Source: a virus. From it: a DNA stretch of 40,003 bases. A model generated the notes under the pieces. It saw only the letters and a program-made list of their open reading frames with translations. It was not told the origin of the DNA and searched no databases. The stretch covers positions 1 to 40,003 of the IMG/VR virus record IMGVR_UViG_3300032050_000319. One strand, 5' to 3'. Shown here in pieces: positions 1 to 36,411 of this stretch (position 1 is the first letter of the stretch; each line of letters starts with the position of its first letter). The position numbers and the translations under genes were made by a program.

Positions 1-114
1 AGGCGCAGGAATATCTTGTGTTCTTTTTTCCACATCAACCTTTGTCACTACATGGTATGCATTAGCAACAGTTACACCAGTTCCTGGTAATTCATAATCT
101 CTGATTAAAGCCAT
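1..114 (-). CDS. Fiber-region small protein, 3'-truncated by window edge
   Basis: The first 38 codons of a minus-strand gene are present; the rest lies beyond the window start. It begins [16 protein letters not shown] and continues through NAYHVVTKVDVEKR. Its ATG shares one base with the stop codon of the upstream fiber gene (TAATG), so translation is probably coupled to it. Short proteins with a 'NAYH' motif near the start are common next to tail-fiber genes in marine and enteric phages and are usually left as hypothetical tail-associated proteins. I infer a tail or fiber accessory role from position only. The frame and start are clear; the function is not. Confidence 0.6.
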   Translation of the reverse strand, partial: MALIRDYELPGTGVTVANAYHVVTKVDVEKRTQDIPAP

Positions 115-1457
115 TATGCTTTCTCCTTTTTTAATTCTTCAATTTCATCTTTTAGCTCTTTGATTGCTTCAATCAAAAGTGCAGTAATATTTCCATAATC
201 AATTCCGTATTGGTCATTTTCATCATCATACATAACAACTTGAGGTAAATGTTCTATAGCTTCTTGAGCAATTAGTCCAACTTTTTGATTCTTCTTTTCA
301 TCTGCAATCATGTTATAGTAAACGCCGCGAAGATTGTATGTTTTTTCTAATGCATTTTTTATAGGTAAAATATTTTCTTTTAGTCTTGCGTCTGAGGCTG
401 CAACAACATTTCCTGTTGCATAAATTGATGCATTTGCATATACTGAATACCCTGATGCTGTTGTTGAAGTTCCAAATCCCCAACAATTATTTGAGTAGCT
501 GTAATAAGAAGCCCATCTACCACCACTTTCATAATAAATTCCGCCATTTGCAGAACCATCAAACATTAAATGAGGTGTATTACCACCATCATAAAAATGA
601 ATACCGCGCCAACCATTTCTTGTTCCGCGTAGTGCAGTACCACCATATGTACTTAAATCATTTGGTTGAATATGCCAGTTATTCGTATCTGAATAATAAC
701 CACTTGCATTTGTATATTGCCAATAGTATTTGTATGAATAATTGCTGGAGCCATTAATTCTAAAAACTAATGTGTTGTGTGAGTAATCATCCCAAAAAGA
801 AACACCCTCATAAGTTGGATTAGCTCCCATAGAAATGCCCACATGATAATTAATGGACAAATCTGGATATGGAGAAGTCCAAGCGCCAGCTTTTTGATGT
901 AATGAGTATGGATAACTTGATGGTGCATTCCCAGAATTTCCACTTACACCACTGAACCCCAATGTGTTTAGTGTTCGGTTTGTGCCATCAACTGTTGCTC
1001 CAGATGGTCCTGTTGGTCCTGCAGGTCCTTGTGCGCCTTGTGCGCCTTGAGCGCCAGTTGGTCCTGTTGCGCCAGTAGGACCTTGAGCACCAGTTGGTCC
1101 CTGTGCTCCAGTAGGACCAGGAGGTCCAGCACTTCCTTGTGCGCCCTGTGTTCCTTGTGCGCCTTGCGGACCAGTTGGTCCTGCTGGCCCTTGTGCTCCT
1201 TGTGCTCCTTGTGGTCCAGTGGGACCAGTTCCACCAGTTGCACCTTGAGCACCTTGGGGACCAGTGGGACCAGTGCCGCCTGTCGCTCCCTGTGCTCCTT
1301 GGGGACCTGTTGCGCCTTGAGCACCCTGTGCGCCTTGTGTTCCTTGAGGACCAATAAGTCCTGTGTTAGCACCTACCCAACGACCATTGGCCGCAATCAC
1401 TTGACTAGAACCAATAGTCAATCCATTTTTTACAATAAAGTCTTGATTAGATGCCAT
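114..1457 (-). CDS. Collagen-like tail fiber with C-terminal S74-type intramolecular chaperone
   Basis: This 447-residue protein has three modules. Residues 1-35 (start [19 protein letters not shown]) form an N-terminal cap nearly identical to that of the fiber gene at 2022-3335. Residues 36-155 are 40 uninterrupted Gly-X-Y triplets rich in GPT, GPQ and GAQ, expected to make a collagen-like triple helix. The middle carries a Gly/Tyr-rich domain with [10 protein letters not shown]. The C-terminus (about 357-447) matches the Peptidase_S74 family: [26 protein letters not shown], then [18 protein letters not shown] as a coiled coil. In that family the domain aids trimer folding and cleaves itself at the Ser-Asp of the 'SDxRxK' motif, present here. 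It is most likely a host-contacting fiber. Which baseplate position it occupies cannot be read from sequence. Confidence 0.85.
993..1352 (-). repeat. Collagen-like Gly-X-Y repeat tract (fiber copy 1)
   Basis: Forty consecutive in-frame Gly-X-Y codon triplets, mostly GPT, GPQ, GAQ and GAT. The plus strand reads as near-identical 9-base units such as 'gcgccttgt' and 'ggtcctgtt'. Comparable tracts lie at 2907-3230 and about 9985-10305 in two other fiber genes. Similar units in three nearby genes make slipped-strand length change and cross-gene recombination plausible. That is inference. Confidence 0.9.
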
Positions 1458-32102: not shown

Positions 32103-32681
32103 ATGGCTTACTTAATGGACAGAATCAATCAGCAGTTGCAAAAGACTGGTTATACGGCTCGTAGTAGACAAGCCCGTGATTGGTTGCGTTCCAAAGTTGG
32201 TGATTTAAAACCAACGCCTCAAAAATTAATGCAGGACCGTGAGAGACAGACAACCTCACATTTTATCGGTCACATGTACTATTTTTATTATGATCCGAAA
32301 ACGAAGGATAAGTTGCCATATTACGACAAGTTCCCATTGGTTCTACCAATACAACTATACCCAGACGGTTTTCTAGGGCTGAATTTACATTACATTCACC
32401 CAAAGCAACGTATCATTCTTTTGGATAAATTGAGCGAACATGCCACCGATAATCGCTTTGATGCACAAACCAAGCTAAGATTAAATTATCAAATGCTGGC
32501 TGCATTCTCAAAAGCGTATGAGGCGACACCTTGCATTAAGCGATATCTAGGTTCTCATGTGCAATCTAGATTTGTTGAAATTCCAGCTGATGAATGGGAC
32601 ATTGCCGCCTTATTACCGGTTGAACAATTTGAAAAGGCAACAAAGAACAAAGTCTGGGCCGATTCTAGGAAAAAATTCTAA
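32103..32681 (+). CDS. Conserved T4-like phage protein, function unassigned
   Basis: This is a 192-residue protein. The N-terminal 50 residues are basic (MAYLMDRINQQLQKTGYTAR, SRQARDWLRSKVGDLK). The core is distinctive: HFIGHMYYFYYDPKTKDKLP, YYDKFPLVLPIQLYPDGF, LGLNLHYIHPKQRIILLDKL, with ATPCIKRYLGSHVQSRF near the end. I recall this pattern from T4-like marine and other phages, where it is uncharacterised and lies near tail and head-completion genes. The basic N-terminus would suit nucleic acid contact; this is inference. It overlaps the next start by one base (TAATG). Confidence 0.7.
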   Translation: MAYLMDRINQQLQKTGYTARSRQARDWLRSKVGDLKPTPQKLMQDRERQTTSHFIGHMYYFYYDPKTKDKLPYYDKFPLVLPIQLYPDGFLGLNLHYIHPKQRIILLDKLSEHATDNRFDAQTKLRLNYQMLAAFSKAYEATPCIKRYLGSHVQSRFVEIPADEWDIAALLPVEQFEKATKNKVWADSRKKF

Positions 32682-33448
32682 TGTCATTTTTACCCCAATT
32701 ATTTTTAGCCAACATAAAGGCTAAAGAAGGCTTAGCCCGTCCAAGTCGTTTCCAAGTTATATTACCAATACCACAATATATTAGCAAGTTTGTTGAGAAT
32801 GGTTTGCTTGAGCAAATTCTTAATTTACCAAATTCAGTTTTTTCGGATGTTACCGCAAGAGTGCTTGGCGGAGAACAAACCCGTTCTTACAATTCATCTA
32901 TTTCAAGATATCTAGCACTTCAATGCGAAGGTGCTGAATTGCCGGGCAAAACATTACAAACGGCTGATGTATCAATTTATGGACCAGGATTCAAAGTGCC
33001 ATATACAACCCAATATGATGAAATTGCACTAACCTGGGTTTGTACAAATGAGTTCTATGAAAGAAAATTGTTTGACCGTTGGATGGAAGCAATAGTTCCC
33101 AACGACACAAACAACGCTAGATTTCCTAAGGGCAAAGAAACATCATACATGACTAACGTTAAAATTGTTCAGTATGATGATTTCATTAAACAGATTTATG
33201 CTGTAGAATTATTTGATGCTTTTCCTATTGGAATAGGAGCACAAACACTTTCTTGGTCGGATGATGGGTTTCATAGATTGACTGTTAGATTTTCATATCA
33301 GAAATTCAAAACAATTTATGAAGGTGATTATGACCTCGGTGCGGCTGCGGCTGCACTTCTTGGTTCTTCCATTGCTGGAGTACCCGTTTCACAAATCCTA
33401 CAATCGCAAATTAGAGGAACGGCTGAAGCTGTGAGAAGAATATTTTAA
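32681..33448 (+). CDS. gp54: Tail-tube initiator, gp54-like
   Basis: This is a 255-residue protein with a tail-tube-type fold. Text such as SRFQVILPIPQYISKF, LQCEGAELPGKTLQTADVSI, YGPGFKVPYTTQYDEIALTW and FYERKLFDRWMEAI parallels T4 gp54 (QMPENRLGYEM, IKLMGREYDPLVISF, NYRAMQDWVNAV) and also gp19. Because gp48 is already present at 30309 and gp19 normally lies elsewhere, gp54 is the best call; a tube paralogue is the alternative. T4 gp54 (320 residues) binds on gp48 and starts tube and sheath polymerisation. The C-terminus is Ala-rich. Confidence 0.65.
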   Translation: MSFLPQLFLANIKAKEGLARPSRFQVILPIPQYISKFVENGLLEQILNLPNSVFSDVTARVLGGEQTRSYNSSISRYLALQCEGAELPGKTLQTADVSIYGPGFKVPYTTQYDEIALTWVCTNEFYERKLFDRWMEAIVPNDTNNARFPKGKETSYMTNVKIVQYDDFIKQIYAVELFDAFPIGIGAQTLSWSDDGFHRLTVRFSYQKFKTIYEGDYDLGAAAAALLGSSIAGVPVSQILQSQIRGTAEAVRRIF

Positions 33449-33463
33449 TTATTTGGAGATTAT

Positions 33464-34201
33464 ATGTTACCTAAAATTGATGTGCCTTTATATGAAATTA
33501 CTTTACCATTACTAAAAAAGAAAGTAAAGTTTAGACCGTTCTTAGTTAAAGAAGAAAAGATTCTTTTGATGGCTGCGGAATCAGAAGACCAAGATGCGAT
33601 ACTTTTGGCCGTGAAACAAATTATTAATAATTGTTGCGTTTCTGATATTGATATTGAAGAATTGCCTATTCTAGATTTTGAATATTTCTTTATGCACTTA
33701 AGAGCAAGATCCGTTGGTGAAGTTGTTGACTTGCAATACAAATGCAATAATACTATTAGTGGAGAAGGTGAAGAGGAAAAGAAATGCAACGCTTTAGTAA
33801 AATTGAGTTTTAATGCTCTGGAAGTTGAACCTGTAATTGGCGATATAAACAACAAAATTCAATTAACACCAAATTTAGGTGTTGCATTAAAATATCCTAA
33901 CTTTAAGAACATTGAAGACATTAGTAAGATACAAGATTTATCATCAAGCGATTTAATTTCAAAAACGATTATCAGTTCTATTGATTTCATTTATGATAAC
34001 GAATCAATGTACTATGCTAAAGATACACCAGAAGAAGAATTGGTAGATTTTATTGATAGTTTGACCAGAGAACAATTTGGAAAAATTCAAGAATTCTTTG
34101 AGAGCATTCCCAAACTTAAAAAACAAATTAAGTTTACTTGTCAAAAGTGTGCTTATGAGGAAGAATTGATGCTTGAAGGAATCCAAAGTTTTTTCGGATA
34201 A
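33464..34201 (+). CDS. gp26: Baseplate hub assembly protein gp26
   Basis: This 245-residue protein belongs to the T4 gp26 baseplate family. Markers are PLYEITLPLLKKKVKFRPFL, VKEEKILLMAAESED and FEYFFMHLRARSVGEVVDLQ. Four cysteines (C94, C108, C226, C229; the last pair in TCQKCAYEEEL) suggest a zinc site. GGAG lies upstream of the ATG. The last codons before the stop contain T TTT TTC, a canonical -1 slippery heptamer, and the -1 frame is open to 34395. The gene therefore probably yields two products: 245 residues, and a 310-residue fusion with the small gp51-position frame. Its role would be hub or tape-measure chaperone, upstream of the tape measure. Confidence 0.88.
   Translation: MLPKIDVPLYEITLPLLKKKVKFRPFLVKEEKILLMAAESEDQDAILLAVKQIINNCCVSDIDIEELPILDFEYFFMHLRARSVGEVVDLQYKCNNTISGEGEEEKKCNALVKLSFNALEVEPVIGDINNKIQLTPNLGVALKYPNFKNIEDISKIQDLSSSDLISKTIISSIDFIYDNESMYYAKDTPEEELVDFIDSLTREQFGKIQEFFESIPKLKKQIKFTCQKCAYEEELMLEGIQSFFG
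34175..34195 (+). other. Candidate -1 programmed ribosomal frameshift site
   Basis: The heptamer T TTT TTC occupies 34189-34195 with the correct zero-frame phasing (AGT TTT TTC GGA TAA), so both phenylalanine tRNAs can re-pair after slipping back one base. A Shine-Dalgarno-like GAAGGA at 34175-34180 lies 8 nt upstream, the placement that stimulates dnaX frameshifting in E. coli. Two bases downstream a weak hairpin (ATAAC-ctttc-GTTAT, 34198-34212) covers the zero-frame stop. The -1 frame is closed upstream at TGA 34174-34176, so the two frames overlap by only 25 bases, centred on the slippery site. Confidence 0.75.
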
Positions 34202-34251
34202 CCTTTCGTTATGATATTTTAAGTAACCATTACCAAACTAATTTCGCACTA

Positions 34252-34395
34252 ATGCAACATCACAAATATTCTTTACAAGATTTAAATGAGATGATGCCGT
34301 GGGAAAGAAATGTATATGTTACTATGCTTCTCCGTCACATTGAGGAAGAAAACGAGAAGATTAAACAACAAAATTTAGCAAGAAGAAAAAAATAA
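34252..34395 (+). CDS. Small gp51-position protein, probably translated mainly as gp26 -1 frameshift extension
   Basis: From the only ATG this is 47 residues (MQHHKYSLQDLNEMMPWERN, then VYVTMLLRHIEEENEKIKQQ). No Shine-Dalgarno precedes that ATG. The frame is open back to 34177, and the extra codons look coding (RITFRYDILSNHYQTNFAL). Entered by a -1 slip at 34189-34195, it adds 66 residues to gp26. Its position, between gp26 and the tape measure, is that of gp51 in T4-like phages, and 'LNEMMPWER.VY..ML..H.EEE' is typical of tape-measure chaperone tails. The stop abuts the tape-measure ATG (TAAATG). Too short for ordinary gene finders, so easily missed. Confidence 0.72.
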   Translation: MQHHKYSLQDLNEMMPWERNVYVTMLLRHIEEENEKIKQQNLARRKK

Positions 34396-36411
34396 ATGGC
34401 AACTAAATTCTCACAAATATACAAACAAGAATTAAAATCAAAAGGTGTTTTGAGTTCTCTTGGTTCAGCGGCTTTGAAGCAAAGAAAAGAGAGAATGGAT
34501 ATTAGAAATGTTTTGTTTGGTGGAAGTGGAGTTGTGTCAGCTACTGGCCAAAAAATATTTGGCAAAGGCTTTTCTGCATTAGGTGGTGCACCAAAGTTAA
34601 GTTCAGATTCACCACAACAAAGTGCGGCTATAAATGCTTTAACTATTTCAAGCGAAAAACAAGAAGGCTTATTAAAAATTGTTGCTAAAAATACTATGAA
34701 CATGAATTCTATGGCTAGAGATATGAATATCACTAGACAAAACATAGCGTCCATGACTAAAAAAGTAGCAGGTAAATCATCAAGAGGTGCGGATGCACTT
34801 TGGATGGGTGCGGAAAAAAGAAATGCATTACTAGCTGACAAAAAAACAACACCGACAAACACTAATAATACCACAGAGAGTAGCGGCGGACTTGGTGGTA
34901 TTTTTTCTGGAATAGGTAACATTCTTTCCGGTGGTGCTGGACTAATTGGAGGAGTTGTTTCGGGACTACTTGGCGTAGTTGGAAAAGTGGGTGGTGGAAT
35001 ATTAGGCGCCATCGGTTCCGTTTTAAGTGGAGTTCCCGGCGGATTTATTTTAGCGACTGTTGCGCTTGCTGGAGTTGCATATTTACTCAAACAAGTTTCT
35101 GAAAATGTAAATTTTGAAGAATTGAAAACTGATATTCTCAAAGGACTTGGTTTAGATCCTAATGATAAAGACAGGTCTTTATCGGAACAAATATTAGAAA
35201 GAATTGGTTTTAGCCGAGAAACTTCTAAAAAAATTATCAACTCAACAAGCGATTTTACAAGAGAAATATCCAAAATATTTGAAGAGCCGGCTAGAATTAT
35301 GACAATCTATGCCAAAGCCGCTTATTTAACATTAACTGATGTTTTTTTGGGAATAGGAAAACAATTTGGTTTCTTTTTGAATGAATTTTTCCAAGACAAT
35401 AAAGGAAAAATTCTTATGGCAGTCACCCTCGGTATAGGTTCAGGTTTTGTTAGAAATCCGGCATCATTAGCCGCTGTCGCAGCCGCGGTAGGTGCCGCTG
35501 GAATATTTGGTGCAACAACTTCGGCCGAAACAACGAATAGTTTAACTGAAGATTTAAATAAGAAAACTGAAAGTCTAAAGAATCAAGAAAAATTATTGAA
35601 CGATATAACTAGAGCTGATCCTAATGATAGAAGAATAGCTGGAAGAAAACAATATATTGAACAACAAAGACAACTAGTTGATGAAGCTAGAATAAAATTA
35701 GACGCTAAAAAAGCTGAACAAGATTCTTTAATGCCAAATATTAGAGATAGGATGAATAGAAATGTTACAGATTTGGAAGAACAGTATCCCAAAACCAAAT
35801 TTACTCCACAAAAAATAGATTCAAATTCACAAAAAGAAACAGCTAATCTAATTCTAAAAAGATTTATGGAAGCAGGTTTTACTTATGAACAGGCTCTTGG
35901 CGCTATAGCAAATGCGTCAGCAGAATCATCTTTAAATCCAAAAGCAAGCAATGTTAATCCAGAAACAAAAGATGATAGTCACGGATTATTTCAATTGAAT
36001 AGACGAGGAGGATTAGGATCTGGGTATAGTGTGGAACAGTTGCATGATGCAGAAACTAACATAGCAATTGCAATACGAGAAGCTAAAAAATCTTCAAAGT
36101 TCAGAACATCAAAAACAGTTGAAGATGCCGCAAGAGCATTTATGGAAGATGTTGAAAGACCTAAAGACCAATCCAACAAAGAATTACAAAGAAGATTGAG
36201 TTTGCCAAATTTTACAGGTGAAAAAATTTCTAGTTCCAGCACAGAATTAAATGACGGTACTAGAACACTTAGTTTAGCTGGCGCAGGCTCAATTGCACCG
36301 ACAGTTATTAATAACAACAATACGACAAACACATCATCCGGTGGTACCGCAGTAGCTTCATCATGGAATAAAGATGCGGCTGAATTGTTTGTCACAAACG
36401 CATACGCATGA
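34396..36411 (+). CDS. Tape measure / gp29-position protein with C-terminal lysozyme-like domain
   Basis: This is a 671-residue protein. Residues 1-150 are helical and polar (KFSQIYKQELKSKG, INALTISSEKQEGLLKIVAK). Residues 160-235 are a Gly-rich hydrophobic stretch ending GGFILATVALAGVAYLLKQV, like the membrane-active part of tape measures. Residues 375-450 are coiled coil. Residues about 481-600 resemble the phage tail lysozyme family (Phage_lysozyme2): LILKRFMEAGFTYEQALGAI, ANASAESSLNPKAS, SHGLFQLN, with E510 a candidate catalytic acid. T4 gp29 (590 residues) has no such domain. It follows the frameshift gene pair directly and converges on gp32. The lysozyme call is by motif and needs a profile search. 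Confidence 0.75.
   Translation: MATKFSQIYKQELKSKGVLSSLGSAALKQRKERMDIRNVLFGGSGVVSATGQKIFGKGFSALGGAPKLSSDSPQQSAAINALTISSEKQEGLLKIVAKNTMNMNSMARDMNITRQNIASMTKKVAGKSSRGADALWMGAEKRNALLADKKTTPTNTNNTTESSGGLGGIFSGIGNILSGGAGLIGGVVSGLLGVVGKVGGGILGAIGSVLSGVPGGFILATVALAGVAYLLKQVSENVNFEELKTDILKGLGLDPNDKDRSLSEQILERIGFSRETSKKIINSTSDFTREISKIFEEPARIMTIYAKAAYLTLTDVFLGIGKQFGFFLNEFFQDNKGKILMAVTLGIGSGFVRNPASLAAVAAAVGAAGIFGATTSAETTNSLTEDLNKKTESLKNQEKLLNDITRADPNDRRIAGRKQYIEQQRQLVDEARIKLDAKKAEQDSLMPNIRDRMNRNVTDLEEQYPKTKFTPQKIDSNSQKETANLILKRFMEAGFTYEQALGAIANASAESSLNPKASNVNPETKDDSHGLFQLNRRGGLGSGYSVEQLHDAETNIAIAIREAKKSSKFRTSKTVEDAARAFMEDVERPKDQSNKELQRRLSLPNFTGEKISSSSTELNDGTRTLSLAGAGSIAPTVINNNNTTNTSSGGTAVASSWNKDAAELFVTNAYA

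Follow-up and report, generated by a model that had tools for sequence, protein, structure and literature searches.

The stretch of viral DNA analysed here (an IMG/VR virus record of 40,003 bases, hereafter the window) contains a T4-like tail region in which a gp26-like gene and a small overlapping frame most likely constitute the tail assembly chaperone (TAC) pair of a T4-like phage, the long form of which would be produced by a -1 ribosomal frameshift, a reading to which we assign a probability of roughly 0.92. It is based on an in-phase slippery heptamer, a -1 frame that is both conserved and under selection, the absence of start codons in that frame before position 34252, an N-terminal domain with a TAC-like fold, and the homology of the encoded tail to the C-terminus of T4-type gp51. 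From these data we infer the actual slippage and its efficiency, and analogy suggests the binding roles of the two products. A frameshift-made TAC pair in T4-like phages is not new, since it was already reported in 2022, and the window represents a further member. In that year, Vladimirov, Gautam, and Davidson (Virology) reportedly found frameshifting to be conserved across several groups of T4-like phages, T4 itself relying on genes 26 and 51. Two papers attribute to Vladimirov et al. 2022 the findings that some T4-like phages do not frameshift and instead have one short gene and one long, fused gene (PMC10885494) and that the TAC-N genes of T4-like phages carry poly-T -1 signals (PMC12846349), so that the sequence-only reading, which was not aware of this being established for gp26/gp51 of T4-like phages, had been preceded by published work. 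As far as these papers describe it, their system shares with ours the short and fused long chaperone genes and the poly-T -1 signals in TAC-N, whereas our study concerns an IMG/VR contig of uncultured origin, together with its relatives, and gives counts, pN/pS values, and statistics on Shine-Dalgarno (SD)-like motifs.

The features of the locus are collected in Table 1; the end of gp26, the heptamer, the limits of the -1 frame, the stop abutting the tape measure gene, the GAAGGA motif, and the 310-residue fusion had all been placed correctly, to the base, from the letters of the sequence. The gp26 protein matches the family PF12322 T4_baseplate (3.6e-56, 190.7 bits, for a curated cut-off of 24.5), to which it therefore belongs, as well as phrog_150 (6.7e-62), and its gene ends in AGT TTT TTC GGA TAA. 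The -1 frame, whose peptide matches phrog_634 (1.3e-25), is open from 34177 to 34392, between a TGA (34174-34176) and a TAA (34393-34395), and the first ATG, GTG, or TTG that it contains is the ATG at 34252, at +53 after the gp26 stop. The predicted fusion would combine 244 residues from gp26 and 66 from the -1 frame. Both frames are located directly 5' of the tape measure ATG, which is the position of a TAC pair. The tape measure protein is the probable client of the chaperones, and the tail tube protein encoded just upstream of gp26, for which the Pfam tail-tube matches were under their cut-offs, is the probable partner of the TAC-C tail. The tape measure protein also carries a joined lysozyme (PF18013 Phage_lysozyme2, 1.1e-13, residues 481-599). 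A CxxC pair (gp26 residues 226 and 229), at least 90% invariant in 52 gp26/gp51 proteins, is found just 5' of the shift site and is possibly a metal-binding element.

Table 1. Features of the chaperone locus and its neighbours in the window.
Feature	Position	Strand	Evidence or role
Tail tube protein, gene just upstream of gp26	32681..33448	+	phrog_45 (1.3e-35)
gp26-like short tail assembly chaperone (TAC-N), 245 aa	33464..34201	+	ORF, PF12322, phrog_150, AlphaFold2, fold match
SD-like GAAGGA, 8 nt upstream of the heptamer	34175..34180	+	Probable frameshift stimulator
Slippery heptamer T_TTT_TTC, in phase	34189..34195	+	Sequence; in-phase T6N in relatives
-1 frame C-terminal extension (TAC-C), 66 codons and stop	34195..34395	+	phrog_634, pN/pS
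Zero-frame stop TAA of the short form	34199..34201	+	Sequence, ORF
Tape measure protein, 671 aa, phage-lysozyme domain	34396..36411	+	phrog_9570 (1.4e-8)

In the frameshift model, most ribosomes would stop at the TAA at 34199 and release the 245-residue short form, and a minority of them, with tRNA-Phe in the P and A sites on T_TTT_TTC, would slip back one base and continue with CGG ATA ACC..., yielding the 310-residue long form (TAC-NC, like lambda gpGT). By analogy with lambda, one would expect the short form to coat the tape measure protein, encoded by the following gene, and the long form to recruit the tail tube through its tail. The window differs from lambda gpG/gpGT in its protein family, PF12322, and in its heptamer, which is T_TTT_TTC and not the G_GGA_AAG of lambda. 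The likeness, as far as PMC5009743 describes it, lies in a short chaperone acting on the tape measure, a -1 shift near the 3' end of its gene, and a long form extended at its C-terminus; the same text states that in lambda the short form binds the tape measure and the C-terminal extension the tail tube, with a short-to-long ratio of 30:1.

A heptamer by itself is weak evidence. The window contains 75 in-phase X_XXY_YYZ heptamers in 12,567 codons (0.6%), and in 4 of its 28 large ORFs one of them falls within 20 nt of the end; because heptamers alone are that common near ORF ends, the case rests on comparative evidence. We gathered 144 loci (80 from IMG/VR, 40 further ones, 23 from named phages, and the window), and the conservation counts come from this sample, the number of gp26-bearing phage records being 977. 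Fifteen T4-type loci with two copies in the stretch and two loci in which gp26 runs off the contig (L060 and L097) were dropped before counting, and the 127 remaining loci with one gp26 were reduced to 72 representatives at 90% nucleotide identity, among which the phages Yut2, Bue1, JA15, and SKML-39 are not included. One locus whose gp26 is interrupted in the record, with a wrong end used (L090), was clustered under another representative, and another (L047) is cut at +95. An in-phase T6N heptamer starting 7, 10, or 13 nt before the gp26 stop is present in 62 of the 72 representatives, 48 of them with the form TTTTTTC at -10, the last base of the variants being C, T, or G. In all 62, TTT is the first Phe codon and follows a codon with T in third position; elsewhere in gp26, TTT averages 64% of the Phe codons. 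We give no p-value, as such statistics treat lineages as independent and overstate significance. Loss of the heptamer in close relatives, which would have spoken against the frameshift, was looked for, and the heptamer is kept in all relatives of 54-100% identity whose gp26 end lies in the contig (L002-L059). Given this conservation and the pN/pS values reported below, a chance origin of the gp26 heptamer is untenable. The ten representatives without T6N comprise seven of Ackermannviridae type, the Vibrio phages D531 and VPALA, and Stenotrophomonas phage IME-SM1. The latter has five T at the slippery site (L131, 2715-2735) and a lengthened annotated gp26, and its congener Yut2 (L145) has six; the T5, which we counted as a miss, is most simply a sequence error.

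Selection on the -1 frame is visible from just past the gp26 stop. In the clade of the window (31 representatives), the stretch from +2 to +49 after the gp26 stop has a pN/pS of 0.207 and no stop in 496 codons in the -1 frame, against 0.99 and 24 stops in the 0 frame and 2.97 and 84 stops in the +1 frame, which bears out the coding character that the sequence-only reading had ascribed to the -1 frame. The 15 members of the clade, including the window, that have no ATG, GTG, or TTG in this stretch show the same signal (pN/pS 0.193, no stop in 240 codons). The -1 frame is thus selected as protein 5' of the ATG at +53, and this is not explained by initiation at 34252. Stops in the -1 frame that separate the slippery site from the small frame, a second outcome that would have contradicted the frameshift, were found in 0 of the 62 T6N representatives. 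Together with the 62 of 72 conserved heptamers, this selection upholds the proposal of a -1 frameshift that joins gp26 to the small frame.

The main competitor is that the small frame is a gene in its own right, whose translation starts, by re-initiation or internally, at the ATG at 34252 or, in some relatives, at a nearer ATG, GTG, or TTG. Current annotations imply a separate gene, small-frame homologues being called 'gp51' or 'baseplate hub assembly catalyst' in cyanophages, and among the 21 annotated frameshift-type records that we opened a separate small CDS is present in 13 and absent from 8. Start codons are also not rare: an ATG at +53 is common among relatives, S-PM2 has an ATG two bases past the gp26 stop, and within the window clade an ATG precedes +53 in 6 of 31 members and a TTG or GTG in 10 more. 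Before +50, 37 of the 62 T6N representatives have some start codon, which is an ATG in 18 (S-PM2 included) and a GTG or TTG in the other 19; 44 have no ATG there, and 25 have none of the three. A -1 frame that is coding from the shift site and has no start of its own there is therefore a property of the window that is not universal in its relatives. Nevertheless, an SD of at least 4 nt lies near a start before +60 in only 4 of the 62, in the long proteins of T4-type phages the homology to the tail begins no more than a few residues away from the point of the shift, and the protein-level selection upstream of +53 (pN/pS 0.21, and 0.19 in the 15 start-less members) is at odds with initiation further downstream, all of which makes a separate gene very improbable. 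Even less credence is due to slippage of the RNA polymerase on the T run, with the long form translated from an edited mRNA. Some relatives do have seven or eight T at the site, and one extra T in the mRNA would open the same frame, but the window has only six, the phase T_TTT_TTN is kept in 62 of 62 representatives (though the conserved Phe-Phe also constrains this phase), and the SD-like motif sits at a spacing typical of ribosomal signals. The 'gp51, baseplate hub assembly catalyst' of many cyanophage and marine phage records is most likely the tail of a frameshifted chaperone and not a gene of its own.

That SD-like motif, which had been noticed upstream of the window's heptamer, proved to be widespread. 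Of the 62 T6N representatives, 51 have one of at least 4 nt in the 20 nt 5' of the heptamer, 48 of those at a distance of 8-10 nt, against a rate of 8.8% (979 of 11,160) for control windows within gp26. Part of it is supplied by a conserved Gly, mostly preceded by Glu, for which the GGA codon is used in 40 of 61 cases, compared with 102 of 390 elsewhere. The motif is a probable stimulator of frameshifting that resembles the internal SD of Escherichia coli dnaX, and in the window the GAAGGA would probably help by pairing with the anti-SD of the ribosome. Downstream, we found no conserved RNA structure in three stretches folded for each of the clade's 31 representatives (mean z between 0.05 and 0.5), and RNAalifold gave -0.92 for this region of the clade, for a column-shuffle mean of -0.23 and an SD (here, standard deviation) of 0.67, so that a downstream stem or pseudoknot is not supported in the window clade. 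No Rfam family matched at 33400-34500. Folded singly, five of nine sequences had z below -2 (S-PM2, -3.8; Vibrio phage D525, -4.1; L072, -2.9; PhiW-14, -2.7; Aeh1, -2.1). S-PM2 (L082, 3206-3285) and D525 (L128, 2520-2600) have strong hairpins just 3' of the heptamer, unlike the window clade, and a hairpin may help in some lineages.

The structural comparison moderately supports a TAC fold, of the HK97 gp13 group, for the N-terminal domain of gp26. The AlphaFold2 model (52-row alignment, pLDDT 89.8) retrieved the HK97 TAC (PDB 2ob9) as the third Foldseek match (E 1.3, probability 0.63), the E-values of the TAC matches being above 1. With VIA-align, the four best Z-scores were those of 3fgx (7.7), YqbN 3klu (7.5), 2ob9 (7.2), and 5ir0 (5.8), followed by a fifth of 2.5; we take 3fgx and 3klu to be structural relatives of HK97 gp13. 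The match is confined to residues 1-94 of gp26, and Z-scores below 8 are moderate. HK97 gp13 itself resembles residues 1-84 (83 residues aligned, rmsd 3.8) and differs in that the gp26 of the window has about 150 further residues with conserved Cys. A sequence search of the PDB found no relative of gp26, and T4 gp51 had a chance-level match only. For a T4-type gp51, modelled from a shallow alignment of seven rows, there was no TAC among the Foldseek matches listed, and the last 50 residues of the model are mostly helices (pLDDT 63-70). The equivalence with lambda G/GT put forward by the sequence-only reading finds support in the frameshift evidence and this HK97-like N-terminal fold taken together. 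PMC3004832 lists T4 gp26 and gp51 as hub assembly chaperones, describes gp51 as an essential protein that has no known function and is missing from the finished particle, and reports genetic support for T4 gp26 as a part of the hub. The latter counts against a chaperone reading, as an assembly chaperone need not be in the hub.

In T4-type phages, the sequence comparisons support a different arrangement, in which the long form would be encoded by a separate gene fused to the tail sequence and the short form would be gp26. T4 gp26 (208 aa) and gp51 (249 aa) both match PF12322 and match each other weakly (2e-6), and phrog_634, the family of the small frame, is matched by T4 gp51 and not by T4 gp26. 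An HMM built from 68 -1-frame peptides, with T4-type sequences excluded, gave 15.6-40.0 bits on 10 of 10 T4-type long copies, the tail alignment starting at profile position 2 in nine of them and at position 4 in RB43; of the nine short copies, four were among the matches listed, all with scores below 0 bits. These 10 long and nine short copies, also used for the tree, lack the short copy of phiP4-3, whose long copy is mislabelled 'short' by the motif rule. The T6 run is absent from 14 of 14 T4-type short copies, which are unclustered and in several cases near-identical to T4, and the seven that keep the Phe-Phe write it TTC TTT. Hence, T4 gp26/gp51 and the window share PF12322 and a homologous tail, at the end of gp51 in the former and in the small frame in the latter, and differ in having two genes, with short copies devoid of the T6 run, versus one frameshifted gene. 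The proposal that gp26 plus the frame in gp51 position is the equivalent of the T4 pair can accordingly be retained as a relation and needs correction in its parts, since the cyanophage 'gp51' is the small tail only, whereas T4 gp51 is a whole gp26-like protein plus the tail and T4 uses two genes. In the tree, the 34 frameshift-type rows (including Ackermannviridae) are split from both T4-type copies by a branch with support 98/92, and as the tree is unrooted it does not show the ancestral state. An HMM of gp26 found one match over all ORFs of the window, which is a fragment, and the intact slippery site argues against the window being of the T4-type two-gene kind. In most loci the two T4-type copies are on opposite strands. 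RB43 (L137, 4982-6291) has its long and short copies in tandem on one strand, unlike T4 and the other two-copy loci seen, and in another locus (L125, 3296-3756) a T4-type gp51 occupies two overlapping frames, the break lying close to a run of five A and possibly being a sequence error.

The Ackermannviridae and two Vibrio phages have an altered site. Vi01, K751, JA15, SKML-39, and Bue1, from five Ackermannviridae genera, keep the -1 frame and the motif of the small frame, and their site reads [A/G]_ATT_TTC_AT; that of the Vibrio phages D531 and VPALA reads A_CTT_TTC_A. The sequence [A/C]TT_TTC_A replaces the T6 run at the same position in five Ackermannviridae loci (L086, L134, L146, L147, and L148) and in the two Vibrio phages (L132 and L135). 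In the seven representatives of Ackermannviridae type, the -1 frame from +2 to +31 has a pN/pS of 0.17 over 70 codons, two of the seven having an ATG at +2, and the five without a start before +32 have a pN/pS of 0.03 over 50 codons only; the 0 frame of this stretch is also free of stops, which makes the evidence thin. In VPALA the -1 frame has no start codon until +77, and in JA15, SKML-39, and D531 the ATG at +2 could start the small frame alone. At this site, we infer that re-pairing of one tRNA-Phe from TTC to TTT would be enough. The accessible portions of the literature on Ackermannviridae tail assembly chaperones and frameshifting hold no description of an [A/C]TT_TTC_A site, and this non-canonical site may be new and unreported. 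We tentatively suggest, with somewhat less than even confidence, that a single chaperone family has taken three routes to its long form, namely slippage on T_TTT_TTC in most of the T4-like phages sampled, a second fused gene in T4-type phages, and slippage on the non-canonical [A/C]TT_TTC_A in the Ackermannviridae and the two Vibrio phages. This family lends itself to a comparison of recoding with gene duplication as ways of setting a short-to-long ratio.

Elsewhere in the window, a tail fibre gene (114-1457, minus strand) has an in-phase AAAAAAG 16 nt before its stop. An ATG in the -1 frame, behind an SD-like GGAG, is probably the start of the next gene, and an ordinary overlap of the two genes is likely.
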